Shown: positions 6,182 to 33,253 of the stretch, piece by piece
How the letters are laid out: each line of letters starts with the position of its first letter
How positions within the stretch are numbered: position 1 is the stretch's first letter
Source of the DNA: Phycisphaerales bacterium
Lineage (GTDB): Bacteria; Planctomycetota; Phycisphaerae; Phycisphaerales; UBA1924
DNA: 33,253 nucleotides
Direction: 5' to 3'
NCBI GenBank assembly: GCA_007693765.1
Contig: RECZ01000066.1
Span: 1-33,253, forward strand
The notes under the pieces: model-generated
The model's database searches: none
The model's input: the letters and a program-made list of their open reading frames with translations, nothing else
What the model was told of the DNA's origin: nothing
Made by a program: the position numbers and the translations under genes

Positions 6182-8158
6182 ATGCTCAGGCTCCTCGCGC
6201 CGATCCTGCTCCTCGCCGGCGCCGTCGCGCTGGCGATCATCGGCGACCGCCCCCAGCCGCCGGCGTCGTACACCTTCCTGAGCTCCGCCGACGCCTTCAC
6301 CCTCGACCCCCAGCGCATGTCCTACGACCAGGACATGCGCATCGCCCACGCCATCTACGACGGCCTCGTCCGCTGGGACCCGTACACCTTCGACATCATC
6401 CCCGGCGTCGCCGAGCGCTGGGACGTCTCCCCCGACGGCCTCGTCTACACCTTCCATCTGCGCGACAACGCCCGCTGGTCCAACGGCGACCCCGTCACCG
6501 CGCAGGACTTCCGCTACTCGTGGCGCCGCGCCCTCATGCCCGACACCGCGGCGAACTACACCAGCCTCTTCTTCGTCATTGATGGCGCCCGCGAGTTCTT
6601 CGATTGGCGATCGCAACAACTCGCCGAGCACGCCGCCAGACCCGCCGCGGAGAGAACCCGCGCCGCGGCCCAGCGGCTCCGCCTCGACGCCGAGGAGCGC
6701 TTCCGCGAGACCGTCGCCATCGATACCCCCGATGCGCGCACGCTCACCGTCACGCTCTCGCGGCCCGCGGCGTACTTCCTCGACCTGTGCGCCTTCCCCA
6801 TCTTCTTCGCCGTCCACCGCGAAAGCGTCGAAGCATGGGCCGACGTCGACCCCGTCACCGGGCGCATCGACCAGCGCCACGGCTGGACAAAGCCCCCGCA
6901 TCTCATCAGCAGCGGCGCCTACAAGGTCGTCTCCTGGCGGTTCAAGCGCGACATGCGCCTCGAGCGCAACGAGCACTATTGGGATAGCGCCAGCGTCCGC
7001 AGCGACTCCGTGCGCATGGTCGTCATCGAAGACCCCAGCACCCGCGTCCTCGCCTTCGAGACGGGCGCCGCCGACTGGAACACCGACGTCGCCGTCGATT
7101 ACCTCGGCGACATGCTCGACGCCCGCGCCCGCGGCGAGCGCCACGACGTCCACCCCATCTCCCGCTTCGGCACCTACTTCTGGCACTTCAACTGCATGCC
7201 CACCCTCACCGGCGGGCGCCCCAACCCCTTCCACGACGCCCGCGTCCGCCGCGCCTTCACCATGTCGATGAACAAGCACGACATCGTCGGCAAGGTCCGT
7301 CGTGGCGGCGAGGATATCGCCACTACGTTCGTCCCCCCCGGCAGCATCCCCGGCTTCGACCCCGAGGGCTCCATCGTCGGCCTGCCCTACGACCCGCCCG
7401 CCGCCCGCGCCCTGCTCGAAGACGCCGGCTGGACGCGCAACGAGAGCGGCGCGCTCACCGACCGCGCCGGCACGCCGTTCCCAGTCGTCGAACTCCTCGC
7501 CTCCACCGGCGCCTACCACGACCGCGTCGCACTCGCCATGGGCGCCATGTGGGAGACAGAACTCGGCGTCCGCACCCGCGTCGTCCGCAAGGAGACGAAA
7601 ACCTACCGCGACGACCTCCTCCGGCGCGACTACATGCTCGCCCGCGGCGGATGGCTCGGCGACTACGGCGACCCCACAACGTTCCTCAACCTCCACCGCA
7701 CAGGCGACGGCAACAACCACCGCGGCTTCTCCAACCCCAACTTCGACGACCTGCTCGATCGCGCCGACCGCGAGACCGATCCCCAGAAGCGCATGCGCTA
7801 CCTCGAAGAGGCGGAGCGCATGACCATGGAAGTCGAACTCCCCATCCTCCCGATCTGGCACTACGCCACCAGCTACCAGTTCCACCCCGACCAACTCAAG
7901 GGCCTCAGCACCCACCCGCGCCTCACCCAATACCTCCACTACATCTACAAGGTCGATCCCGCCAAGGCCGATCCAAACCCCTCTTCTCCTCCTACCAAAC
8001 CTAGTGGGACGGGCGTCCCGCCCGTCTCCTCCAAAACCTCTGATTTCTCGGCCCCGGTCTCGAAGGGGCAGTCTCCACAAACGCCGCCTGAGAGCGACGC
8101 GAGCAGCGCAATGCAGTCATCGGAGCCGACGCCGAGCGCAGAGGGCGCACACCCATGA
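6182..8158 (+). CDS. Peptide ABC transporter substrate-binding protein (OppA/DppA-like, SBP_bac_5)
   Basis: A 658-residue extracytoplasmic binding protein for peptide or similar uptake. The N-terminus (MLRLLAPILLLAGAVALAII) is a signal peptide or anchor without a lipobox cysteine, unusual for this family. Family landmarks include the opening strand TFLSSADAFTLDPQRMSYD, AERWDVSPDGLVYTFHLRDN (about residues 76-95), WSNGDPVTAQDFRYSWRRAL, LISSGAYKV, RNEHYWD, VRRAFTMSMNKHDIV and the late WLGDYGDPTTFLNL. The globular part ends near residue 600. The last 55 or so residues are a low-complexity Pro/Ser/Thr tail partly encoded by a 30-bp palindromic repeat (8001-8030). The stop overlaps the permease start (ATGA). 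There is no evident Shine-Dalgarno; a TACCCT box at 6170-6175 ends 6 nt before the ATG, so the mRNA may be leaderless. Confidence 0.92.
   Translation: MLRLLAPILLLAGAVALAIIGDRPQPPASYTFLSSADAFTLDPQRMSYDQDMRIAHAIYDGLVRWDPYTFDIIPGVAERWDVSPDGLVYTFHLRDNARWSNGDPVTAQDFRYSWRRALMPDTAANYTSLFFVIDGAREFFDWRSQQLAEHAARPAAERTRAAAQRLRLDAEERFRETVAIDTPDARTLTVTLSRPAAYFLDLCAFPIFFAVHRESVEAWADVDPVTGRIDQRHGWTKPPHLISSGAYKVVSWRFKRDMRLERNEHYWDSASVRSDSVRMVVIEDPSTRVLAFETGAADWNTDVAVDYLGDMLDARARGERHDVHPISRFGTYFWHFNCMPTLTGGRPNPFHDARVRRAFTMSMNKHDIVGKVRRGGEDIATTFVPPGSIPGFDPEGSIVGLPYDPPAARALLEDAGWTRNESGALTDRAGTPFPVVELLASTGAYHDRVALAMGAMWETELGVRTRVVRKETKTYRDDLLRRDYMLARGGWLGDYGDPTTFLNLHRTGDGNNHRGFSNPNFDDLLDRADRETDPQKRMRYLEEAERMTMEVELPILPIWHYATSYQFHPDQLKGLSTHPRLTQYLHYIYKVDPAKADPNPSSPPTKPSGTGVPPVSSKTSDFSAPVSKGQSPQTPPESDASSAMQSSEPTPSAEGAHP
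8001..8030. repeat. Interspersed 30-bp palindromic repeat, copy 1 (in frame in the binding-protein gene)
   Basis: These 30 bases are identical to 11453-11482. The core is an inverted repeat, GACGGGC and GCCCGTC around GTCCC, extendable to a 9-bp stem with one G-T pair. It encodes the GTGVPPV stretch of the binding protein's tail. Such strings recur in many planctomycete genomes, to my knowledge; I cannot count copies from one window. Confidence 0.8.
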
Positions 8159-9078
8159 CCGGGCTCATCCTCCGCCGGCTCATCCAGGCGCCCCTCATCC
8201 TGCTGGTGATCTACACCATCACCTTCCTGCTCGCGTGGGCGCTGCCCGGCAGCGCCGTGCTCTCAGACGAGGGCCGCCAGCCGCCGCCCGAAGTCCTCGC
8301 CGCGATGGAGGCGCAGTACAACCTCGACAACCCCGTCGCGTTCTACTTCGGCTACCTCAAGGGCGTCGTCACCGCGCTCGATTTCGGCCCCTCGTTCCGG
8401 TACCCGGACTGGACGGTCAACGACATCGTCGCCAGTGCGCTGCCGGTCTCCGTCGCGCTGGGCCTCAGCGCCATCCTGATCGCGCTGATGATCGGCGTCG
8501 CCGCGGGAGTGGTGGGGGCGGTGCGCCCAAACTCTTTCGCCGACATCGCCACACTGGTCATCGCGCTCATCGGCATCAGCATGCCGGCCTTCGTGATCGG
8601 CTCGGTGCTGCTGATCGTCTTCCCCGTCTGGCTCGGCATCGGCAGCGTCGGCGCGTGGGGGACGATCCCCGACATGATCCTCCCCGCGATCACCCTCAGC
8701 CTGCCCTTCGCGGCCTACATCGCGCGCCTCACCCGCATGGGCATGATCGAATCACTCGGCGCCGACTACATCCGCACCGCCCGCGCCAAGGGCGTCGCCG
8801 AACGCGTCGTGATTCTGCGTCACGCCCTCAAGAACGCCTTCCTCCCCGTGCTGAGCTTCCTCGGCCCCGCCGCGGCCCAGGCCATGACCGGCTCCTTCGT
8901 CGTCGAGAAGGTCTTCAACGTCCCCGGACTCGGCCAGCACTTCGTCAACGGCGTGCTCAACAAGGACCTCTTCCTCATCATGGGCGTCGTGCTGATCTAC
9001 GCGAGCATGCTCATCGCCTTCAATCTCATCGTCGACATCCTCTACCACTGGGTCGACCCGCGGATCGAGCAGGCGTAA
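8155..9078 (+). CDS. Peptide ABC transporter permease, OppB/DppB family
   Basis: A 307-residue inner-membrane permease. The ATG at 8155 overlaps the stop of the binding-protein gene by four bases, so the two are translationally coupled. The N-terminal signature MTGLILRRLIQAPLILLVIY is the usual first membrane span of DppB-type subunits, followed by an extracytoplasmic loop (AQYNLDNPVAFYFGYLKGVV) and five more spans. The cytoplasmic EAA loop that contacts the ATPase is present near residues 203-230 (YIRTARAKGVAERVVILRHA), then VEKVFNVPGLGQHFVNGV. Oligopeptide importers need a second permease (OppC) and ATPases (OppD/OppF); none follow, since the next gene is an unrelated secreted protein with its own promoter. 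The missing partners must be elsewhere. Confidence 0.95.
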   Translation: MTGLILRRLIQAPLILLVIYTITFLLAWALPGSAVLSDEGRQPPPEVLAAMEAQYNLDNPVAFYFGYLKGVVTALDFGPSFRYPDWTVNDIVASALPVSVALGLSAILIALMIGVAAGVVGAVRPNSFADIATLVIALIGISMPAFVIGSVLLIVFPVWLGIGSVGAWGTIPDMILPAITLSLPFAAYIARLTRMGMIESLGADYIRTARAKGVAERVVILRHALKNAFLPVLSFLGPAAAQAMTGSFVVEKVFNVPGLGQHFVNGVLNKDLFLIMGVVLIYASMLIAFNLIVDILYHWVDPRIEQA

Positions 9079-15029: not shown

Positions 15030-18000
15030 ATGCCCAATTCCCTCGCCAGCGACACGCCCGCGACCGCACCGGCGCCCGCGCGCACTCCGGGCGCGCCCTC
15101 CGACGCCGTGCTCGACGCCAACCTTCGCGCCCTCGCCCGCCTCTCGCCCGACGCGGCCGAGGCGATCCGGCGCGCCGGACCGTGCGCCGACGCCGAGTTC
15201 TTCCCCACCGACGACGGCGCCCTCGGCGCGCGCCTCGGCGGCCGCCTGCTCGCCAGCGCCCGGCGCCCGCGTGAGGAAGCGCAGCGCTTTTGCGAGGGCG
15301 TCGACGTGCGCGACGCCGCGGGCATCGTCGTCGCCGGCTTCGGCCTGGGCCTGCACGTCGAGGAACTCGCCCGCAGCGCCGGGCGCACGGTGCTGCTGAT
15401 CGTCTACGAGCCCGACGTCGAGTTGCTCCGCGCCGTGCTCGAGCGCGTGGACATGAGCGCCGCGCTGCACGGCTCCAACGTGCTGCTGCTGACCGATCCC
15501 GACGACGCCGCGGCCATCAGCGCCGGCCTCACCGGGATGGAGGCCTTCATCGCCATGGGCGTGGAGATCGTCGAGCACCCGCCCAGCGTCCCGCGCCTCG
15601 GCGACAGCGCCGCCCGGTTCGGGCGCACCCTCGCCCGCGTCGTCGCGGCGGTGCGCACCAACGTCGTCACGACGATGATGCAGACCGAGACCACCACGCG
15701 CAACACCCTCATGAACGTCGCGTGGTACGCCGGGCGCGAGGGCGTCGAGCCCCTGCGGGGCGCGTGCGCGGGCCTGCCCGCCGTCGTCGTCAGCGCCGGG
15801 CCCAGCCTCGAACGCAACATGCGCCTGCTCGCGGCCCCCGGGGTGCGCGAGCGCTGCGTGATCGTCGCCGTGCAGACCGCGCTCAAGCCGCTGCTCAACG
15901 CCGGCGTGCGCCCGCACTTCGTCACCGCGCTCGACTATCACGAGATCAGCGCCCGCTTCTACGAGGGCCTCACCCCGGCCGACGTCGCGGGCGTCACGCT
16001 CATCGCAGAGCCCAAGGCCAACCCCGCCATCCTCGACGCCTTCCCCGGCGCTGTGCGCTGCCCGCGCGACGAGTTCCTCGACGCCGCCCTCGGCGACGAC
16101 CTCGCCGGCGAGCACGGCGCCGTGCCCTCGGGCGCCACCGTCGCCCACCTCTCGTACTACTTCGCCCGCTGGCTCGGATGCGACCCCGTCGCCCTCATCG
16201 GGCAGGACCTCGGCTTCACCGACGGCCAGTACTACGCCGGCGGCGCCGCCATCCACGACGTGTGGGCGCCCGAACTCAACATGTTCCGCACGCTCGAGAT
16301 GATGGAGTGGGAGCGCATCGTGCGCTCGCGCGCCATCCTCCGGCGCGCCGAAGACCACCTCGGCCGCCCCGTCTACACCGACGAGCAGATGGCCACCTAC
16401 CTCGCCCAGTTCGAGCGCGACTTCCGCGCCGACGCCGCCCGCGGCCTGCGCATCGTCGACGCCACCGAGGGCGGCGTGCGCAAGACGCACGCTGAGACCG
16501 CCACCCTCGCCGACTTCCTGCGCCGGCACGCGCACGACGACGCCCCGCGCCTGCCCGACCTCGACCCGCCCGCGGCCTACGCCGAGCCGTCCCGGCGCGC
16601 CGACGTGCGCGACCGCCTGCGCGACGTGCGCCAGGGCGTGTGGCGCATCGGCGAGTGCGCCCGCAAGGCCGACCGACTGCTGGAGGAGATGCTCACACAC
16701 CACGACGACCAGCCGCGCGTCAACCGCCTCATCGGCGCCGTGGACCGCGTGCGCGACGAGGCCGTGGCGACGCAGCCCGCGTACGAACTCGTGCACCGCT
16801 TCAACCAGGCCGGCTCCTTCAACCGCGCCCGCGCCGACCGGGCCATCGCGCTGGAGCGCGATCTGCCCCCGCTCGAGCGCCAACGCCGCCAGATCGAGCG
16901 CGACGCCCAGAACGTGCGCTGGATGGGCGACGCGGCCGACGCGCTCGGCGCCCTCCTCGACGAGGCCCTGCGCGTCTACGACGGCGCCGTCAAGCCCACC
17001 CGCGACAGCGCCCCGCGCCGCACGCCCGCGCCCACGCTCGCCGGCGAGCGGGCGCCCACCAAGGCCAAACAACCCACCCGCGTCGACGCCGTCGTGCACG
17101 TCCCCGGCGACAGCCGCGCGCTGCGCGAGACGTTCGCTGGCCGGATGCGCCTCCTCTCGACGCTCGACAGGCTGACGCGCTGCGCGCGCATCGACCGCGT
17201 CTTCCTGCTCACCGATGATGTCGAAGGCGTGCGCGAAGCCGTCTCCGGCGCCGGGGCGCGGGTGTTCCACGTGGAACAGGCCGACGGCGCAGCGCTGCGG
17301 ATGCGCACCGATCGTGCGCACGCGCTGCGACGCTTCGCGCCCGACTCCTGGCGCGGCGCCCCGGGCGGGCTCACCGTCTTCGACGAGGCGCTCGCGCCCG
17401 AGGCGCTGCTGCCGCTGATGCAGCGCGAGGGCATGAACGCCGCGCTGCTGGTGGGCGCCGACTGGGCGCTCGTCGACCCGGCGCTGTGCGACGCCGTCAT
17501 CGATCGCCACCTCGAACACCCCGAGCGGCACCCGCTGGCGTTCACACAGGCCGCGCCCGGGCTGTGCGGCGTGGTGATCGATCGGCGCATCGTCGAAGAA
17601 ATGGCCCGCGCCGGCGACAAGGCGGGCGCCTTCGGCACGCTCGGAGGGTTGCTCAGCTACCTGCCCGTCCGCCCCAAGGCGGACCCCATCGCCCAGCCGG
17701 TGTGCGTGCGCATCGACGCCGAGGTGCGCGACGCGGGCGTGCGCTGCATCCCCGACACACGCTCCGGCGCACGGGCGATGGAGGCCGCGCTGGGTGGCGC
17801 CGACGCCGCCACGATCGACGCTCTCTCCCTCGTGCGCACGCTCCGAGCGCACCGGGGTAACGGCGAAGCGGCGCCACGCGAACTGTTCGTCGAACTTTGC
17901 GACACGCCGACCACCGCGCGCCGGCGCATCGGCGCCGGCGCGCGCCAGGACGGCGCCGGCGCGACGGCGAGCCTCGCATCGTTCGCGCGACTGCTCGAGG

Positions 18001-18650
18001 CGTACGCGTCCGTTCGTGACGACCTCGTCGTCTCGTTCGAGGGCCGCGGCGACACGCTGGCGCACCCCGCGTGGGCCGACTTCGTCGCCTGCGCCCGAGA
18101 GCGGGGCTCGGGCGCGATCCACGTCCGCACAGACCTTCGCTGCGCCCCCGAGAGCGTGGATGCGCTGCTCGCGGCCGCGCCGGACACGGTGAGCGTCGAC
18201 CTGCTCGCCGAGACGCCCGAGACGTACCACGCGCTGACCGGGTTCGACGACTTCGCCCGCGTGCAGGCCAACGTCGAGCGCCTGCTCGAGTTGCGCCCCG
18301 GCGCGGGATGGATGCCCGGCCCGTGGCTGGGCGTGCGCATCACGCGCTGCGACGCGACGTACACCGAGGTCGAGACCTTCTACGACCGCTGGCTGCTGCG
18401 GACGGGCGGCGTGGGCGGGGCCATCATCGACCCGCTGCTGCGCCCCATCGAGGGCGAGCGGATCGCGCCGCTGCCGGCGCCGCGACTGTTGCGCGAGCGC
18501 GTGGCGGGCGAGCGGATGTTCCTGCGCTGCGACGGCGCGGCGGCGCTCGACGAACACTTCGAGCACGCGGTCGCTCACGACGCCGCGGCCGATCCCGCGG
18601 GCGCGTGGCGCGCCGTGCGCGAGGCCCGCGCGGGCGGGGGTGGGGCGTGA
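15030..18650 (+). CDS. Tripartite fusion: Maf/MptE-like glycosyltransferase, SpsF-like transferase, radical-SAM-like domain
   Basis: A 1206-residue cytosolic protein. The start at ATG 15030 lacks a clear ribosome site, but the upstream frame overlaps the divergent gene. Residues about 40-560 are the MAF_flag10/MptE-like region: AVVVSAGPSLERNMRLL near 250-266, VRPHFVTALDYHEI near 290 and VALIGQDLGFTDGQYY near 388-403. Helices to about 650 and an Ala/Pro/Lys/Arg linker follow. Residues 683-920 start VDAVVHVPGDSRALRETFAGRMRLL, like SpsF/cytidylyltransferase-type proteins. Residues 949-1206 resemble the radical SAM barrel (HPAWADFVACARERG, TVSVDLLAETPETYHAL, then TEVETFYDRWL) but have no CxxxCxxC. 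Maf proteins transfer nonulosonic acids to flagellin in other bacteria. Its stop overlaps neuA, so it is probably the transferase of this pathway. Domain calls 2 and 3 are less sure than the first. Confidence 0.82.
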   Translation: MPNSLASDTPATAPAPARTPGAPSDAVLDANLRALARLSPDAAEAIRRAGPCADAEFFPTDDGALGARLGGRLLASARRPREEAQRFCEGVDVRDAAGIVVAGFGLGLHVEELARSAGRTVLLIVYEPDVELLRAVLERVDMSAALHGSNVLLLTDPDDAAAISAGLTGMEAFIAMGVEIVEHPPSVPRLGDSAARFGRTLARVVAAVRTNVVTTMMQTETTTRNTLMNVAWYAGREGVEPLRGACAGLPAVVVSAGPSLERNMRLLAAPGVRERCVIVAVQTALKPLLNAGVRPHFVTALDYHEISARFYEGLTPADVAGVTLIAEPKANPAILDAFPGAVRCPRDEFLDAALGDDLAGEHGAVPSGATVAHLSYYFARWLGCDPVALIGQDLGFTDGQYYAGGAAIHDVWAPELNMFRTLEMMEWERIVRSRAILRRAEDHLGRPVYTDEQMATYLAQFERDFRADAARGLRIVDATEGGVRKTHAETATLADFLRRHAHDDAPRLPDLDPPAAYAEPSRRADVRDRLRDVRQGVWRIGECARKADRLLEEMLTHHDDQPRVNRLIGAVDRVRDEAVATQPAYELVHRFNQAGSFNRARADRAIALERDLPPLERQRRQIERDAQNVRWMGDAADALGALLDEALRVYDGAVKPTRDSAPRRTPAPTLAGERAPTKAKQPTRVDAVVHVPGDSRALRETFAGRMRLLSTLDRLTRCARIDRVFLLTDDVEGVREAVSGAGARVFHVEQADGAALRMRTDRAHALRRFAPDSWRGAPGGLTVFDEALAPEALLPLMQREGMNAALLVGADWALVDPALCDAVIDRHLEHPERHPLAFTQAAPGLCGVVIDRRIVEEMARAGDKAGAFGTLGGLLSYLPVRPKADPIAQPVCVRIDAEVRDAGVRCIPDTRSGARAMEAALGGADAATIDALSLVRTLRAHRGNGEAAPRELFVELCDTPTTARRRIGAGARQDGAGATASLASFARLLEAYASVRDDLVVSFEGRGDTLAHPAWADFVACARERGSGAIHVRTDLRCAPESVDALLAAAPDTVSVDLLAETPETYHALTGFDDFARVQANVERLLELRPGAGWMPGPWLGVRITRCDATYTEVETFYDRWLLRTGGVGGAIIDPLLRPIEGERIAPLPAPRLLRERVAGERMFLRCDGAAALDEHFEHAVAHDAAADPAGAWRAVREARAGGGGA

Positions 18651-19393
18651 GCGCGGCGGCGATCATCTTGGCAAGAGCGGGCAGCAAGGGCGTGCCGGGC
18701 AAGAACCGGGCGCCGGTGGGGGGGCGCCCGTGCGTGCTGTGGACCATCGACGACGCCCGCGCCGCGCGGGAGGTGTCGCGGGTCGTCGTCTCGACGGACG
18801 ACGCCGAGGTGGCGCACATCGCCGGCGCCGAGGGCGTGGAGGTGATCGCGCGTCCTGCGGCGCTGGCCCACGACACGGCGACGGTGGACGCCGCCGCCCG
18901 CCACGCACTGGAGACAATGGGCGACGAATCTCTCGACGCTTTCGTCATTCTCTACGCCAACGCGCCGGTGCGGCCCGAGGGGCTGATCGATCGCGCCCTC
19001 GCGCTGCTGCGCAGCACGGGCGCGGATTCGGTGCAGAGCGTGCAACCCGTGGGCAAGCATCACCCGTGGTGGACGGCGCGGATCGACGAGGCCACCGGCG
19101 CGATGGCGCCGTGGGAGGGCGAGACGCTCAACAACAACGTGTTCCGCAGGCAGGACCTGCCCGCGGCGTACATCCCCGACGGGGGCGTGCTATGCGTGAC
19201 GCGCGATGCGCTCACGCTCCGCGTACCGGGCGCCGGGGAGGGGCCGCACGCGTTCCTGGGGCGCGACCGGCGTGCGGTCGTGAACCTCGAGGGCTCGGTG
19301 ATCGACATCGATGCGCCCATAGACCTGCTCGTGGCGGACGCGACCCTGCGCGCCCGCGCTGGGCTCGGCGTGGGCGCGGAGCGCACCGCATGA
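18647..19393 (+). CDS. neuA: CMP-nonulosonic acid (N-acylneuraminate) cytidylyltransferase
   Basis: A 248-residue cytosolic enzyme that activates a nonulosonate with CTP to give the CMP-sugar donor. GTG start at 18647 overlaps the previous stop (GTGA). The CTP-binding signature ARAGSKGVPGKN is at residues 9-20, with the expected Arg, Ser-Lys-Gly and Lys-Asn. Other landmarks are VVVSTDDAEVAHIA, the nucleotide/sugar region YANAPVRPEGLIDRALAL (where many homologues have PTSPLR), SVQPVGKHHPWW, and the late metal-binding DIDAPIDLLVAD. It is full length for single-domain NeuA. Its stop overlaps the neuB start by four bases. The alternative is a CMP-legionaminate or pseudaminate synthetase of the same family; the presence of neuC favours the Neu5Ac-type or another ManNAc-derived route. 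Confidence 0.93.
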   Translation: MSAAAIILARAGSKGVPGKNRAPVGGRPCVLWTIDDARAAREVSRVVVSTDDAEVAHIAGAEGVEVIARPAALAHDTATVDAAARHALETMGDESLDAFVILYANAPVRPEGLIDRALALLRSTGADSVQSVQPVGKHHPWWTARIDEATGAMAPWEGETLNNNVFRRQDLPAAYIPDGGVLCVTRDALTLRVPGAGEGPHAFLGRDRRAVVNLEGSVIDIDAPIDLLVADATLRARAGLGVGAERTA

Positions 19394-20427
19394 AGATCGC
19401 CGGACGCGAGATCGGCCCCGACGCCCCGCCCTACGTGATCGCCGAACTGGGCGTGAACCACGACGGCTCGCTGGACCGGGCGCTGGAACTGGTGGATGCC
19501 GCCGCGGAAGCGGGCGCGGACGCGGTGAAGGTGCAGGTTTTCCGGGCGGAGGCGCTGATGGGCCGGGCCGCGCGGCTGGCGGCGTACCAGCGGGCGAGCG
19601 GCGAGGCGGACCCGGTGCAGATGCTGCGCCGTCTGGAGATGCCCGCGGAGCGGCTGCGTCTCATCGCCGAGCACGCGCACCGGCGTCGCCTGCACGCGAT
19701 CGCCACGATCTTCAGCGTCGAACTCATGGACGAAGCACAGGCGCTGGGCTTCGACGCGTACAAGAGCGCCTCGCCCGACATCGTACACAGGCCGCTGCTG
19801 GAGGCGATGGCGGGCGCCGGGTCGCCGCTGATCGTCAGCACCGGCGCCGCGACGCTCGACGAGGTGCTGCGGGCGTGCGCGTGGCTGCGCGGCGCCGCGG
19901 AGTCGTCGCGTCTGGCGCTGCTGCAGTGCGTGAGCGCGTACCCCGCGCCCGACGAGGACGCCGCGCTCGGCGCCATCAACACACTGGCGATGGAGACGCG
20001 CCTGCCCGTCGGCTACAGCGACCACACCGCCGGCGTGGACACGGGCGGTCTGGCCGTGGCCGCAGGCGCGTGCCTGCTGGAGAAACACCTGACGCACGAC
20101 CGCCGCGCCAAGGGGCCGGATCACGCGGCGTCGCTGGAGCCGGAGGAGTTCGAGCGGTACGTGCGGCTGGCGCACCGGGCGCAGCGCATGATGGGGGGCA
20201 CGGAGAAAAGGGTGCGCGAGGCGGAGCGCGATGTGCGCGAGGCGTCGCGGCAGTCGATCGTCGCGGCCCGCGCGCTGGCGCCGGGGGTGGCGATCGGCGC
20301 GGCGGATATCGCCTACAAGCGCCCGGGCGTGGGCCTGGAGCCGTGGCGCGTGGGGGACGTGCTCGGGCGCACGCTGGTGCGCTTCGTGGATGAGGGCGCG
20401 CCGATCACGCCGGAAGACATCGCATGA
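19390..20427 (+). CDS. neuB: N-acetylneuraminate (nonulosonate) synthase
   Basis: A 345-residue enzyme that condenses phosphoenolpyruvate with an N-acylmannosamine-type sugar to form a nine-carbon acid. ATG at 19390 overlaps the neuA stop (ATGA); GGAG lies eight bases upstream. The TIM-barrel domain begins YVIAELGVNHDGSLDRAL (residues 15-32) and AGADAVKVQVF, then has YKSASPDI, IVSTGAATLDEV, LLQCVSAYP, LPVGYSDHTAG (near 205-215) and CLLEKHLTHDRRAKGPDHAASL. The C-terminal SAF (antifreeze-like) domain runs from about residue 285 (RQSIVAARALAPGVAI, KRPGVGLEPW) and closes the active site of the partner subunit. Length and motifs are normal for NeuB. The product could be Neu5Ac or a related nonulosonate. 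Confidence 0.95.
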   Translation: MKIAGREIGPDAPPYVIAELGVNHDGSLDRALELVDAAAEAGADAVKVQVFRAEALMGRAARLAAYQRASGEADPVQMLRRLEMPAERLRLIAEHAHRRRLHAIATIFSVELMDEAQALGFDAYKSASPDIVHRPLLEAMAGAGSPLIVSTGAATLDEVLRACAWLRGAAESSRLALLQCVSAYPAPDEDAALGAINTLAMETRLPVGYSDHTAGVDTGGLAVAAGACLLEKHLTHDRRAKGPDHAASLEPEEFERYVRLAHRAQRMMGGTEKRVREAERDVREASRQSIVAARALAPGVAIGAADIAYKRPGVGLEPWRVGDVLGRTLVRFVDEGAPITPEDIA

Positions 20428-21569
20428 GCGGTGCGCCCCAGCCGTTGCGGGTCGCGGTCGTGACCGGCACGCGGGCCGAGTTCGGCCTGCTCGCGCCCGT
20501 GATGCGCGCCGTGCGGGCGCACGAGGGGCTCACGCTGCAGACCATCGTCTGCGGCGCCCACCTGCTGCCCCCGACGGAGACGTGGCGCGAGGTGGAGCGC
20601 GCGTTCGGCATCGATGCGCGGGTCGAGATGCAGCGCCCCGGCGAGATCGGGCGGCTGCACGATGCCCGGGCGCTGGGGCGCGGCGTCGCGGGCATGGCCG
20701 ACGCGATCGAGCGGCTGCGCCCGGACTGGGTGGTGGTGCTGGGCGACCGCGTCGAGGCGCTGGCGGGCGCCGCCGCGGCGAGCGTGGGGGGGGTGGCGAC
20801 GGCGCACATCCACGGCGGCGACGTGGCCGAGGGCGTGGCGGACGAGGCGATGCGCCACGCCATCACGAAACTGTCGCATTTGCATCTGGCCGCGAGCGAG
20901 CAGTCGGCGCGGCGGATCACGCGGATGGGCGAGCGACCCGAGCACGTGCGCATCACCGGATCGCCCGCCCTCGACGGTCTCTACAGCGTCGTGCCGATGG
21001 ACGACGACGCCTACGCGCGTCTGGGCTCGCCGCGGGCGCTGGTGCTGATGCACCCGATCGGTCGCGACGACGCGGCGGAGCAGCGCGACACTCGGGCGGT
21101 GCTGGAGGGGGTGGCGTCGATGCAGCTCGCATCGCTGGCGCTGCACCCGAACTACGACGCGGGGCGCGACGGCGTGCTGCGCGCGATCGAACTCTCGGGC
21201 GTGCGGGCGATCGGCCACCTGCCGCGGCCGGCGTTCCTGTCGCTGCTGTCGCGGCTGGCGCGCGACGAGGGGGTGCTGGTGGGCAACAGTTCGTGTGCGC
21301 TGATCGAGGCGGGGGCGATGCGTCCGGCGCTGGCGGCGGTGGATATCGGGCCCCGGCAGGCGGGCCGGGAGCGGGCGAGCAACGTGGTGCACGCGTCGGA
21401 CGTGAGCGCGAAGGCGGTCGCGTCGGCGATCAACGCCGCCCACGCCATCGACCTTTCACGGGTCAAGAGCCCCTACGGGGACGGGCGCGCGGGGGAGCGG
21501 ATCGCGGCCGCCCTGGCCGCGGTGGACCCGCGCGACCCGAAGCTGCTGCGGAAGCGGCACGCCGACTGA
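20424..21569 (+). CDS. neuC: UDP-N-acetylglucosamine 2-epimerase, hydrolysing
   Basis: A 381-residue enzyme that converts UDP-GlcNAc to ManNAc and UDP, the entry step of sialic-type acid synthesis. ATG at 20424 overlaps the neuB stop (ATGA). Landmarks are TGTRAEFGLLAPVMRAV near residues 14-30, VVVLGDRVEALAGAAAA near 106-122, then HIHGGDVAEG followed by DEAMRHAITKLSHLHLA, the ITGSPALDGL strand, LMHPIGRDD and the substrate-contact VGNSSCALIEAGAM. HIHGGD...ITKLSHLH is characteristic of NeuC rather than of non-hydrolysing WecB. It ends the operon, with 120 nt before the HDOD gene. No gene for 6-deoxy or diamino modification (LegB, LegC, PseB, PseC) is nearby, which argues for a simple N-acyl mannosamine precursor. 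Confidence 0.94.
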   Translation: MSGAPQPLRVAVVTGTRAEFGLLAPVMRAVRAHEGLTLQTIVCGAHLLPPTETWREVERAFGIDARVEMQRPGEIGRLHDARALGRGVAGMADAIERLRPDWVVVLGDRVEALAGAAAASVGGVATAHIHGGDVAEGVADEAMRHAITKLSHLHLAASEQSARRITRMGERPEHVRITGSPALDGLYSVVPMDDDAYARLGSPRALVLMHPIGRDDAAEQRDTRAVLEGVASMQLASLALHPNYDAGRDGVLRAIELSGVRAIGHLPRPAFLSLLSRLARDEGVLVGNSSCALIEAGAMRPALAAVDIGPRQAGRERASNVVHASDVSAKAVASAINAAHAIDLSRVKSPYGDGRAGERIAAALAAVDPRDPKLLRKRHAD

Positions 21570-26364: not shown

Positions 26365-27078
26365 GTGGCAACCAAGGAACTCTCAAAGAACATGCCCAAG
26401 CGCGCCCGTGAGAACGAGGCGATGCGCCCCGCCGAACCGCTGCCCATCGAGGAAGCGGTGTCGACGCTCAAGAAGTTCAAGGGCCCCAAGTTCGACCAGA
26501 CGGTGAACGTGTGCCTGCACCTGGGCATCGACACCAAGCAGGCCGATCAGGCGATCCGCGGCTCCATCGCGCTGCCCAAGGGCATCGGCAAGAGCAAGCG
26601 GGTCGTCGCGTTCTGCGGCTCCGACAAGGTCAAGGACGCGCTGGCCGCCGGCGCCGTGAAGGCCGGCGGCGAGGAGCTCATCGCCGAGGTCGACGGCGGC
26701 TGGATGGACTTCGACGTCGCTGTGGCGACGCCGGACATGATGCGCGTCGTGTCGCGTCTCGGTCGCGTGCTGGGCCCTAAGGGCCTGATGCCCTCGCCCA
26801 AGGCGGGCACCGTGACGCCCGACGTCGAGACGGCTGTGCGGGAGTACAGCGCCGGCAAGATCGAGTACCGCAACGACAAGGGCGGCAACGTCCACGCCGT
26901 GGTCGGCAAGATGAGCTTCAGCGAGGCCGACCTGCAGGAGAACCTGCGTCACTTCATCGACGCGATCGAGCGCGCCCGGCCACAGGCGGCCAAGGGCGTC
27001 TTCATCAAGCGGATCACCATCAGCGGGACCATGACGCCCGGCGTGCAGGTCAAGCACGTCGCCGCGGCCATCGCCTGA
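26365..27078 (+). CDS. rplA: 50S ribosomal protein L1
   Basis: A 237-residue protein of the L1 stalk on the large subunit, which moves with the E-site tRNA. GTG start at 26365 is served by GGAGG in the last codons of rplK (eight-base spacing); only three bases separate the genes. Family signatures include VNVCLHLGIDTKQADQAIRGS, LPKGIGKSKRVVAFC, and the L1 signature GRVLGPKGLMPSPKAGTV near residues 132-149, then NVHAVVGKMSF and the closing GVFIKRITISGTMTPGVQV. In other bacteria L1 also represses this operon by binding a leader that mimics its rRNA site; I did not find a convincing mimic here. Confidence 0.98.
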   Translation: MATKELSKNMPKRARENEAMRPAEPLPIEEAVSTLKKFKGPKFDQTVNVCLHLGIDTKQADQAIRGSIALPKGIGKSKRVVAFCGSDKVKDALAAGAVKAGGEELIAEVDGGWMDFDVAVATPDMMRVVSRLGRVLGPKGLMPSPKAGTVTPDVETAVREYSAGKIEYRNDKGGNVHAVVGKMSFSEADLQENLRHFIDAIERARPQAAKGVFIKRITISGTMTPGVQVKHVAAAIA

Positions 27079-27103
27079 GGCAGCGAGACATCGAGGAACG
27101 ACC

Positions 27104-27649
27104 ATGAGCGCCCACACCAAAAAATACATCATCCGCGACTACACGCAGCGCCTCGAGGGCTTGGACGATGCGCTGGTGATCTCGATCCGCGGCGTCAACG
27201 CGATCGACAACAACGCCATGCGCAACGCGCTGGCCGAGAAGCAGATCAAGGTGACCGTGGTGCGCAACAACCTGGCGCGCCACGCCTTCAAGGAGTCGCT
27301 GCTGGGCAACGCCTCGCCGCTGCTCAAGGGCCCCTCGGCGTTCGCCTACGGCGGGCAGTCGGTGGTGGACGTCGCCCGTGAACTGATCAAGTGGGCCGAG
27401 AAGCTCGAGCACCTCGAGCTCAAGGGCGCCGTGCTCGACGGGCAGATCTTCGAGGGCAAGGCCGGCGTCGAGAAGCTGAGCAAGATGCCCACCCGCGAAG
27501 AGGCCCTCTCGCAGGCGGTCACGCTCATCCTCAGCCCCGGCGGCAAGCTCGTCAGCCAGCTCAAGGGCCCCGGCTCCACGCTGGCCTCCATCCTCAAGAG
27601 CATCGAAGAGAAGCTGGAGAAGGGCGAGACGATCGCCAAGTCCGCCTGA
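27104..27649 (+). CDS. rplJ: 50S ribosomal protein L10
   Basis: A 181-residue protein that anchors the L7/L12 stalk to 23S rRNA. ATG at 27104 has GAGGA seven bases upstream. N-terminal rRNA-binding part: YTQRLEGLDDALVISIRGVNAIDNNAMRNAL, KQIKVTVVRNNLARHAF and LLKGPSAFAYGGQS. The C-terminal helix that binds L12 dimers is seen in STLASILKSIEEKLEKGE. A 25-nt gap separates it from rplA. The spacer that follows, before rplL, is unusually long (170 nt) and structured, so L10 and L12 amounts may be set separately here. Confidence 0.97.
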   Translation: MSAHTKKYIIRDYTQRLEGLDDALVISIRGVNAIDNNAMRNALAEKQIKVTVVRNNLARHAFKESLLGNASPLLKGPSAFAYGGQSVVDVARELIKWAEKLEHLELKGAVLDGQIFEGKAGVEKLSKMPTREEALSQAVTLILSPGGKLVSQLKGPGSTLASILKSIEEKLEKGETIAKSA

Positions 27650-27712
27650 GCGTCGCTTCCCGAACAGATACACACCCGTCGCGGCCGCGCGGCGGATCGA
27701 ACCAGAGACCTT

Positions 27713-27765
27713 TGTTCAGACTGGCCCCCGGGTTAAAGGCCGAGCGTTCGGCCCCTCTCTGAACA
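27713..27765 (+). ncRNA. Nested hairpin in the rplJ-rplL spacer (cis-regulatory candidate)
   Basis: An outer stem pairs TGTTCAGA (27713-27720) with TCTGAACA (27758-27765), all 8 bp perfect. Inside it, GGCCGA (27738-27743) pairs with TCGGCC (27748-27753) around a GCGT loop. No U-tract follows, so it is not a simple terminator. It lies 55 nt before rplL and could be a processing or L10/L12-related control element. Confidence 0.45.
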
Positions 27766-27819
27766 CCGTCACGCGTCGGCGTCCGCAGGGCCCGGCGCGG
27801 AGCAAGAAAGCAGGATCCC

Positions 27820-28224
27820 ATGTCCGAGACCGCAACCGTTGAATTCAGCGCGAAGATCTCCAAGCTGGGCGATGAGCTCGCCGGCCTGACGCTCAAAGAG
27901 GCCGTGGACCTCGGCGAGTACATGAAGGAGACGTACGGCATCGAGCCCGCCGCGGGCGGCGCCGTGATGATGGCCGGCCCCGCCGCCGCTGGCGCCGAGG
28001 CCGCCGAGGAGAAGTCCACATTCGACGTGGTGCTCACCGGCGCCGGCGACAAGAAGATCCAGGTGATCAAGGTCGTGCGCGAGCTGACCGGCCTGGGCCT
28101 GAAGGAAGCCAAGGACCTCGTCGACGGCGCCCCCAAGCCCGTCAAGGAGGGGGTCTCGAAGGAAGACGCCGACAAGATGAAGGCGCAGCTGGAAGAGGTC
28201 GGCGCCTCGGTCGAGCTGAAGTAA
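27820..28224 (+). CDS. rplL: 50S ribosomal protein L7/L12
   Basis: A 134-residue acidic stalk protein, present in several copies per ribosome, that recruits the translational GTPases. ATG 27820 has AGGA five bases upstream. N-terminal dimerisation helices ([24 protein letters not shown]) lead to an Ala/Gly hinge near residues 45-62. The C-terminal domain starts [21 protein letters not shown] and ends [11 protein letters not shown], with the factor-binding surface around [20 protein letters not shown]. It is slightly longer than the 120-residue E. coli protein because of the N-terminus and hinge. A perfect hairpin follows its stop. Confidence 0.98.
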
Positions 28225-28235
28225 CGCACCGCGCG

Positions 28236-28267
28236 CTCGTCGGGGGAGGCCCGCCTCCCCCGACGAG
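28236..28267 (+). other. Perfect 14-bp hairpin between rplL and rpoB
   Basis: CTCGTCGGGGGAGG (28236-28249) pairs with its exact complement at 28254-28267 around a CCCG loop. It starts 11 nt after the rplL stop. There is no U-tract (ATGCTTGCG follows), so a role as partial attenuator, RNase III site or 3'-end stabiliser is more likely than full intrinsic termination. Enteric bacteria also have an attenuator and an RNase III site in this interval. Confidence 0.6.
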
Positions 28268-28368
28268 ATGCTTGCGCAGCGTGGGCCGGCGACGCGCCGG
28301 CCTCGTCTGTGCGGCATTTGTTCGGATCAGGACTCGGTAGATTTCATGAAAACGTTTTGCTCTGCAGG

Positions 28369-28398
28369 TTGCTCCGCCGTTGTGCGGGGTGCTAGAGT
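28369..28398 (+). promoter_or_regulatory. Candidate internal promoter for rpoBC
   Basis: TTGCTC (28369-28374) and TAGAGT (28393-28398) are 18 nt apart, and TGC directly before TAGAGT makes an extended -10. The surrounding stretch from 28315 to 28370 is the most AT-rich part of the operon. The leader to rpoB would be about 113 nt. Confidence 0.4.
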
Positions 28399-28517
28399 GC
28401 AGGGCTTGACGCGACTCGGGTGCGACACGCTCACGAACTCACTCATCACAATTCTCGGCAGGCGCATGGCGATGTCACGCGAAGCCGGGATTTGTGCACA
28501 CCATCGCGAGGTCATCG

Positions 28518-32324
<3,807 letters not shown>

Positions 32325-32406
32325 CGCGCACGGGTTTGATCGGCGACACCGGCGCACGTGCGATGACCTCTGACGAACACGCCTCCTGCAGGGAGCGGAT
32401 AGACCA

Positions 32407-33253
32407 ATGGCAGAAACGATTTACGACCGGATCAACGACTACGGCTCCGTGAAGATCACCCTCGCTTCGCCCAACGACATCCGGTCGTGGTCGTTCGGCG
32501 AGGTGAAGAAGCCCGAGACGATCAACTACCGCACCTACCGCCCCGAGAAGGACGGTCTGTTCTGCGAGCGGATCTTCGGGCCCGAGCGCGACTACGAGTG
32601 CGCGTGCGGCAAGTACAAGGGCACGAAGTACAAGGGCATCATCTGCGACCGCTGCGGCGTGAAGGTGACGCACTCGCGCGTGCGGCGCAAGCGGATGGGG
32701 CACATCAACCTCGCCGCGCCGATCGTGCACATCTGGTTCTTCAAGGCGCTGCCGAGCCGCCTGGGCACGCTGCTGGGCGTGAAGACGACGGACCTCGAGA
32801 AGATCGTTTACTTCCAGGACTACATCGTCGTCGAGCCCGGCGACACGGAGATGAAGTTCAAGCAGCTGCTCACCGAGGACGAGTACCGCGCCCAGATGGA
32901 GAAGCACGGCAACGCCTTCCGCGCGCTCATGGGCGCCGAGGCGATCCGCGAGCTGCTCGAGCGCATCGACCTCGACCAGGTGGCGATGGAGCTCCGCGAG
33001 GAGCTGCGCAACACCCGCAGCAAGCAGAAGACCAAGGACCTCGCCAAGCGCCTCAAGCTCGTCGAGCAGCTCCGCAACTCCGAGAACGACCCCTCGTGGC
33101 TGGTGATGGACGTCATCCCCGTCATCCCGCCCGACCTGCGCCCGCTGGTGCTGCTGGAGTCGGGCAACTTCGCCACGAGCGACCTCAACGACCTGTACCG
33201 GCGCATCATCAACCGCAACAACCGCCTCAAGAAGCTGATGGACCTCAACGCCC
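32407..33253 (+). CDS. rpoC: DNA-directed RNA polymerase subunit beta', 3' end outside window
   Basis: The first 282 codons of beta', cut by the right edge with no stop. ATG 32407 starts [59 protein letters not shown] is the standard N-terminal signature. The zinc ribbon has its four cysteines at residues 65, 67, 80 and 83 ([17 protein letters not shown]), followed by [28 protein letters not shown]. The segment [43 protein letters not shown] is the entry to the lid and rudder region. A GGAG lies about 12 bases upstream of the ATG. The catalytic NADFDGD lies beyond the window. Confidence 0.98.

Follow-up and report, generated by a model that had tools for sequence, protein, structure and literature searches.

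What does a glycosyltransferase do with two further enzyme folds joined to its C-terminal end? The question is raised by a gene of a Phycisphaerales bacterium (assembly GCA_007693765.1, contig RECZ01000066.1), located in a stretch of 33,253 nucleotides that was analysed as a whole and is referred to as the window. The gene encodes a protein of 1206 residues, in which a Maf glycosyltransferase is followed by a domain resembling the nucleotidyltransferase SpsF and by another resembling radical S-adenosylmethionine (SAM) enzymes; these two domains together are called the module here. Directly behind it lie neuA, neuB and neuC. Our best explanation, to which we assign a probability of roughly 0.45, is that the operon is a flagellin-glycosylation cassette of a flagellated bacterium, in which a Maf flagellin glycosyltransferase carries a non-catalytic module docking the synthetase of the cytidine monophosphate (CMP)-activated sugar or its product or, less likely, flagellin. 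What the module does is our inference; the arrangement itself can be read directly from the sequence (Table 1).

The three parts are encoded in one open frame with zero internal stops. The GC content at third codon positions is 0.965, 0.90 and 0.947 across the three parts, so that the frame looks coding throughout. An earlier reading of this DNA from its letters alone (the sequence-only reading) had reported one uninterrupted frame, and it was right: the same fused frame is present in 41 of the 68 other loci compared below, which rules out a frameshift or misassembly in the linker near residue 660. The four-nucleotide overlaps that it described at all three junctions with neuA, neuB and neuC are also there (GTGA at 18647, ATGA at 19390 and ATGA at 20424). 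In the Maf part, the Pfam family PF01973 (MptE-like) matches with E 1.9e-31 (109.6 bits, cut-off 34.6), accompanied by sub-threshold matches to Maf_flag10_N (Pfam) and PseD (NCBIfam), and neuA, neuB and neuC exceed the Pfam cut-offs of CTP_transf_3, NeuB and Epimerase_2, respectively. The module is far less conspicuous to such searches. Its SpsF-like part has neither a Pfam nor an NCBIfam match, CTP_transf_3 being absent from the fused protein, and its radical-SAM-like part matches PF04055 weakly (E 0.016, 15.8 bits against a cut-off of 29.5).

Predicted structures make both extra domains clear by fold, weak as the radical-SAM part is by sequence. An AlphaFold2 model of residues 668-1206, computed from an alignment of 47 homologues, has a mean predicted local distance difference test score (pLDDT) of 91.2 and a predicted template modelling score (pTM) of 0.92, and Foldseek retrieved radical SAM enzymes and cytidylyltransferases with it. 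Pairwise comparison by VIA-align placed residues 683-924 on 6oew, a Leptospira cytidylyltransferase (Z 20.2, 218 residues, 2.9 Å), and residues 944-1206 on SuiB (5v1s; Z 19.3, 250 residues) and MoaA (2fb2; Z 19.2, 242 residues). The likeness of residues 683-1206 to SpsF and radical SAM proteins, claimed from the sequence at the outset, is therefore present at the level of fold. A computed model of residues 21-1206 scored pLDDT 90.5 and pTM 0.89, the latter value meaning that the model predicts a defined position of the module relative to Maf. Its top Foldseek match was the Maf crystal structure 5mu5 (E 6.4e-19, TM score 0.47 by target length, 718 columns), which together with PF01973 supports the identity of the N-terminal part.

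The fused protein is not peculiar to one bacterium. A match to it was found in 57 of 61 genomes, comprising the window's own and 60 relatives. At the sequence level the module was examined in 49 of these 57 genomes (G001, G016, G018, G019, G021, G027, G047 and G059 being the matching relatives outside this set) and in 20 further loci, drawn from 19 genomes of the phylum that are more distant, giving 69 loci. Maf and module share one frame in 42 of them, including the window and two aberrant forms with a short Maf, and in 19 an unfused module lies in the same locus as a Maf gene. Within the window's order, the split form occurs in families f5 and f6 and in a single genome of f1 (locus L042). 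A maximum-likelihood tree of 89 modules was built rapidly, has many weak forks and is rooted only at the midpoint. In it, 41 of the 42 fused forms belong to one clade (Shimodaira-Hasegawa-like approximate likelihood ratio 98). The remaining one, L154, is placed far off, beside an unfused paralogue from its own genome, so that fusion arose at least twice. The main fused clade also contains the unfused L042 (genome G032), in which Maf and module are two overlapping frames, the result of either a secondary split or an assembly frameshift. In L146, the module gene has a Maf-like gene on either side. That the phylum is probably the planctomycetes is suggested by PSD2 (PF07624), a domain typical of Planctomycetes: it is present in 12 of 40 members of the phylum, in up to 22 copies, and absent from all 14 controls, but also from the genome of the window itself.

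Gene context is preserved along with the protein. Flanks were counted at 39 loci (40 were fetched, L049 being Maf only); neu genes were called by a phmmer threshold with the window proteins, a procedure that scores diverged copies and contig ends as absent. The module is accompanied by neuA at 36 loci and by neuB and neuC at 30 each, neuA being missing from L050 and from the aberrant forms L039 and L040. The order Maf-module-neuA is maintained across most loci. Among the distant genomes, L138 has Maf-module-neuA-neuB-neuC with extra genes interspersed, and L140 has Maf-module-neuA with fliD and fliS (identified by Pfam) directly upstream. The aberrant forms, L039 (genome G054) and L040 (G042), consist of the module fused to a shortened Maf (832 and 964 amino acids); neuA, neuB and neuC were not found in the 13 kb fetched around either, and these proteins are possibly re-used or decaying. 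Taken together, Pfam and NCBIfam matches, gene context and folds support the proposal that a single operon here serves both the synthesis of a nonulosonic acid and its attachment.

Judged by their sequences, the two domains of the module seem to have lost catalysis. CxxxCxxC is found in none of the 69 module homologues of the window's phylum, the window protein included, and in 16 of them the loop that once held the cluster is down to 12 residues or fewer. The nucleotidyltransferase signature (R..S..LPGK type), which we wrote from invariant columns of alignment A3 and the usual pattern of such enzymes, is likewise missing from all 69 modules, and also from 20 spirochaete homologues treated below. 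As controls, the neighbouring active enzymes of spirochaetes have this signature in 12 of 14 cases and neuA genes in 37 of 40. An active radical SAM enzyme and an active SpsF were rejected on these grounds. What had been read as SpsF-like and radical-SAM-like domains thus stands for the folds and is not supported for active enzymes, and with both motifs gone it is unlikely that an extra domain modifies the sugar by radical chemistry.

The cysteines of the SPASM domain show a more graded distribution. The window protein has 0 of the 4. With a tolerance of two alignment columns, all four are present in 15 of the 19 unfused modules that share a locus with Maf, in 7 of the 8 that have none nearby and in 1 of the 42 fused forms. 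The domains that lost these residues are nevertheless under constraint: in one close pair (L030 and L031) the ratio of nonsynonymous to synonymous substitution rates (dN/dS) is 0.07 in Maf, and the added domains have ratios of 0.18 (pseudo-nucleotidyltransferase) and 0.175 (pseudo-radical-SAM), values that disfavour simple decay of the added domains. In a second pair, synonymous sites were near saturation.

By sequence comparison, the module is homologous to a spirochaete protein family, TIGR04321 (spiro-SPASM). This NCBIfam model matches residues 974-1122 of the window protein (E 2.3e-8, 33.2 bits), scores 35.8 bits against its C-terminal part and reaches 133.3 bits in the best relative, L032, all of them under the cut-off of 250. 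Among the 47 module sequences of alignment A1, 35 match it at E ≤0.01 (best 1e-38), and module and TIGR04321 proteins are alignable along their entire length. Spirochaete genomes were reached via a 16S pattern; 21 of 26 carry the family above cut-off, and 20 loci were fetched. The CxxxCxxC motif is kept in 17 of these 20 and the four SPASM cysteines in all 20. The three proteins devoid of the motif (L121, L123 and L124) nest in the intact spirochaete clade, which makes motif loss there separate from that in the window's phylum. In 14 of the 20 loci the next gene encodes an intact SpsF-like nucleotidyltransferase, related to 6oew (E 1.7e-44); among the other six, L124 is at a contig edge. Two to five MptE-like genes are located elsewhere in each of the 21 spirochaete genomes searched. 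The picture that emerges is one of apparent stepwise loss: most spirochaete proteins are intact, most unfused relatives in the window's phylum keep the SPASM cysteines only, and the window's fused lineage keeps neither motif.

Some further genes of the spirochaete loci may be recorded here. Directly before the spiro-SPASM gene, many of L106-L118 have a gene for an exported protein resembling peptidyl-prolyl isomerases and SurA, identified by Pfam and NCBIfam on the L107 copy. After the nucleotidyltransferase, many of the same loci encode a protein of about 300 amino acids with a GxGHxQR start. By eye it looked PseG-like, but only one of five copies scanned matched, with E 2e-4 and 21.1 bits against a cut-off of 153.55, so that we assign it no identity.

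The acceptor of the sugar is likely flagellin. The sequence-only reading saw no flagellin near the operon and considered another surface protein or glycan; the genome, as it turns out, carries flagellin genes on contig C100, three of which match Flagellin_N strongly, and there is a fourth match as well. FlgK-like and CsrA-like open reading frames (ORFs) were also recognised by eye on C100. Flagellin_N is found in 56 of the 61 genomes, 55 of which possess the protein, the exception being G005, an assembly 87% complete. Three of the five flagellin-negative relatives lack the protein, and the other two, G042 and G054, have the aberrant short-Maf form. Fisher's test gives p = 0.0011 if these two are scored as present and 1.0e-6 if they are scored as absent. 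In a wider set of 294 genomes of the phylum, 30 have a full-length module by manual reading (G263 was added after inspection), and flagellin occurs in 29 of these 30 as opposed to 132 of the 264 module-less genomes (p 2.1e-7). G038 has three flagellin genes some 6.5 kb upstream of its cassette. With a single MptE-like gene and a single NeuB in the window's genome, the most economical view is that one sugar is attached to flagellin by one Maf.

As for the identity of the sugar, neuC exceeds the cut-off of its NCBIfam equivalog (279.6 bits against 235.9), NeuB falls under that of NeuB_NnaB (307.6 against 399.65) and NeuA finds its best NCBIfam match, again under cut-off, in PseF (84.8 against 205.7). 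The sugar may be of the Neu5Ac type or legionaminic acid: contig C65 carries, at its end, a gene for a PseB-like dehydratase that scores 147.9 bits against a cut-off of 407.75.

How might the parts work together? As families, NeuC, NeuB and NeuA produce a nonulosonic acid and activate it with CMP, and Maf proteins transfer it. In the cassette, the three Neu enzymes would supply the activated sugar and Maf, from what is known of the pathway, would move it from CMP onto Ser and Thr residues of flagellin in the cytoplasm. The uncertain step concerns the C-terminal half, which we picture as a donor-side scaffold without catalysis of its own. It may bind active NeuA, as a pseudo-subunit beside an active one, or else the CMP-sugar that NeuA produces, and would in this way supply Maf with its donor. 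A donor-side role is favoured by the nucleotidyltransferase fold, by the position between Maf and neuA in most loci and by the nucleotidyltransferase neighbour in spirochaetes. A nucleotidyltransferase appears to be the ancestral partner of the module; in the planctomycete lineage, the module would have become a partner of Maf, initially encoded next to it and later fused to it.

Several observations weigh against this reading. Maf is no constant neighbour of the module: eight of the 69 loci have no Maf in the fetched stretch, some of them near a contig end, and Maf was not found among the called ORFs of the 20 spirochaete loci. A strict or fixed dock for NeuA is weighed against by L142 and L144, where neuB follows the module (Maf-module-neuB-neuC) and no neuA was found, and by L047, where about 2 kb separate module and neuA. 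The nucleotidyltransferase domain of the module bears only modest resemblance to the active SpsF-like profile (hhalign 60%, E 8.6e-5). On the side of the acceptor, G042 and G054 retain a fusion of short Maf and module without flagellin, G332 has the module and no flagellin match, 132 genomes bear flagellin without the module, and the p-values given above ignore shared ancestry.

The main rival, unlikely in our estimate but the best of the alternatives, puts the module on the acceptor side: a pseudo-radical-SAM/SPASM domain that formerly bound peptides would recognise flagellin and position its Ser and Thr residues for Maf. The fold neighbours include the peptide-modifying SPASM enzymes SuiB, SkfB, anSME and PqqE, and module and flagellin co-occur. 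According to PMC13317340, Maf-1 is reported to engage flagellin via a C-terminal tetratricopeptide repeat (TPR) domain and Maf-2 via a co-encoded factor, GlfM, helpers that the module may resemble. Against this rival stands the Maf core itself: as described in PMC11339370, 5mu5, the Maf of Magnetospirillum magneticum, already has at its C-terminal end a helical domain weakly similar to FliS and flagellin, preceded by a degenerate Rossmann domain at the N terminus and a middle domain resembling the sialyltransferase Cst-II. In spirochaetes, moreover, 14 of 20 loci have a nucleotidyltransferase gene right after that of the homologue, and no Maf was found next to the latter.

Quite improbable is that the half is a structural remnant, slowly decaying and needed only for folding or stability of Maf. 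That the cysteines disappear step by step between unfused and fused forms, and that the added domains change faster than Maf, would agree with it; a dN/dS of 0.18, the high confidence of the predicted fold and retention in module loci of many families would not. Still less probable, in our view, is a chemistry of its own without the classical motifs, such as hydrolysing, transferring or editing CMP-sugars. Six residues (R100, D118, W145, F171, G177 and P484 in A1 numbering) are conserved in 47 of 47 aligned sequences, and the fold neighbours DesII, BlsE and viperin act on nucleotides or nucleotide sugars, but both signatures are gone throughout and the former cluster loop, besides its shortening in 16 of 69 homologues, is modelled with low confidence. 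An acceptor other than flagellin, for which speak a window without flagellin and the flagellin-less fusions of G042 and G054 (no neuA, neuB or neuC found in those loci), is very improbable given the flagellins of the same genome, the co-occurrence, the flagellins upstream of the cassette in G038 and the fliD and fliS genes adjoining in L140.

Table 1. Features of the cassette and of related loci. Positions refer to the window unless a locus is given.
Feature	Position	Strand	Basis
Three-domain protein, 1206 aa: Maf + pseudo-cytidylyltransferase + pseudo-radical-SAM/SPASM	15030..18650	+	
Maf glycosyltransferase part, residues ~28-650	15111..16979	+	Pfam, Foldseek (5mu5)
MptE-like PF01973 core, residues 225-398	15702-16223	+	Pfam
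Linker, residues ~651-682; pLDDT <50 at residues 664-677	16980..17075	+	Structure model
Cytidylyltransferase (SpsF/KdsB/NeuA) fold, residues ~683-924, nucleotide-binding signature lost	17076..17801	+	
Radical-SAM barrel and SPASM remnant, residues ~944-1206, without CxxxCxxC and SPASM cysteines	17859..18647	+	
Former [4Fe-4S] loop, residues 958-977, low model confidence	17901..17960	+	
neuA, CMP-nonulosonate cytidylyltransferase, signature intact (RAGSKGVPGK)	18647..19393	+	Pfam CTP_transf_3
neuB, nonulosonate synthase; sole PF03102 match of the genome	19390..20427	+	Pfam NeuB
neuC, UDP-GlcNAc 2-epimerase	20424..21569	+	TIGR03568 above cut-off; Pfam Epimerase_2
~200-aa protein before maf	L140:3771-4385		
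~200-aa protein before maf	L144:11364-12011		
~200-aa protein before maf	L146:10404-11003		

The last three rows of Table 1 concern a protein of about 200 amino acids with a similar start (MxIIxDG/MRIVINGR), encoded directly before maf in three distant genomes; its L140 and L144 copies have zero Pfam or NCBIfam matches. Elsewhere in the window, a solute-binding protein and a permease of a peptide-type ABC transporter (6182-9078) are unrelated to the cassette. The stretch 26365-33253 contains ribosomal protein L1 (Pfam), and the ORFs behind it resemble, judged from their starts and sizes only, L10, L7/L12, rpoB and rpoC. Scans of the whole window for Rfam families and tRNAs found nothing.

The novelty of the locus is two degenerate enzyme folds kept as a module, together with the link to spiro-SPASM, rather than extra active enzymes on Maf. 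Its conserved arrangement suggests a hitherto unrecognised helper module in flagellar glycosylation. A bolder version, which we regard as rather doubtful, holds that an obligate partner made of a dead nucleotidyltransferase and a dead radical-SAM/SPASM domain couples CMP-sugar synthesis to flagellin glycosylation, and that active TIGR04321 proteins are, by homology, radical-SAM enzymes of a nucleotide-sugar pathway. If that were true, the unfused forms with SPASM cysteines alone, which make up 15 of the 19 next to a Maf gene, 7 of the 8 with none in the vicinity and 3 of the 20 from spirochaetes, would be iron-sulphur proteins with an auxiliary cluster and without SAM chemistry. The family itself shows an unusual pseudoenzyme series, in which first the radical-SAM cluster and then the auxiliary cluster was lost while the fold was kept. 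The fusion, having arisen at least twice, also ties a spirochaete family without assigned role to nonulosonic-acid glycosylation, and it offers a natural test of how Maf enzymes receive donor or acceptor at a time when their need for helpers is only now being described.

Neither a fusion of Maf with a radical SAM domain, let alone as a common family, nor a function of spiro-SPASM proteins is described in the open-access literature searched, most subscription papers being outside its scope. Compared with known systems, the protein shares with the Maf family (PF01973, 5mu5) the MptE-like core, the overall fold, linked nonulosonic-acid genes and a flagellated host. 5mu5 ends at the helical domain (PMC11339370), whereas the window protein continues for about 540 C-terminal residues with two degenerate folds. 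With TIGR04321 it shares the pairing of a pseudo-nucleotidyltransferase with a radical-SAM/SPASM domain; in the 20 spirochaete loci, in contrast, most of the proteins keep CxxxCxxC, all keep the SPASM cysteines and none was found beside Maf, and the window protein scores under the family cut-off. Residues 683-924 have the fold of SpsF/KdsB-type cytidylyltransferases such as 6oew but not their signature loop, and residues 944-1206 have the barrel of SuiB, MoaA, BlsE and DesII but neither the [4Fe-4S] motif nor SPASM cysteines. Maf-1 and Maf-2 (Unay et al. 2024, as reported in PMC13317340) may be comparable in principle, being Maf proteins that need an extra domain or partner; they are set apart by the helper itself, a TPR domain for Maf-1 and GlfM for Maf-2 as against the two-domain module in the window.

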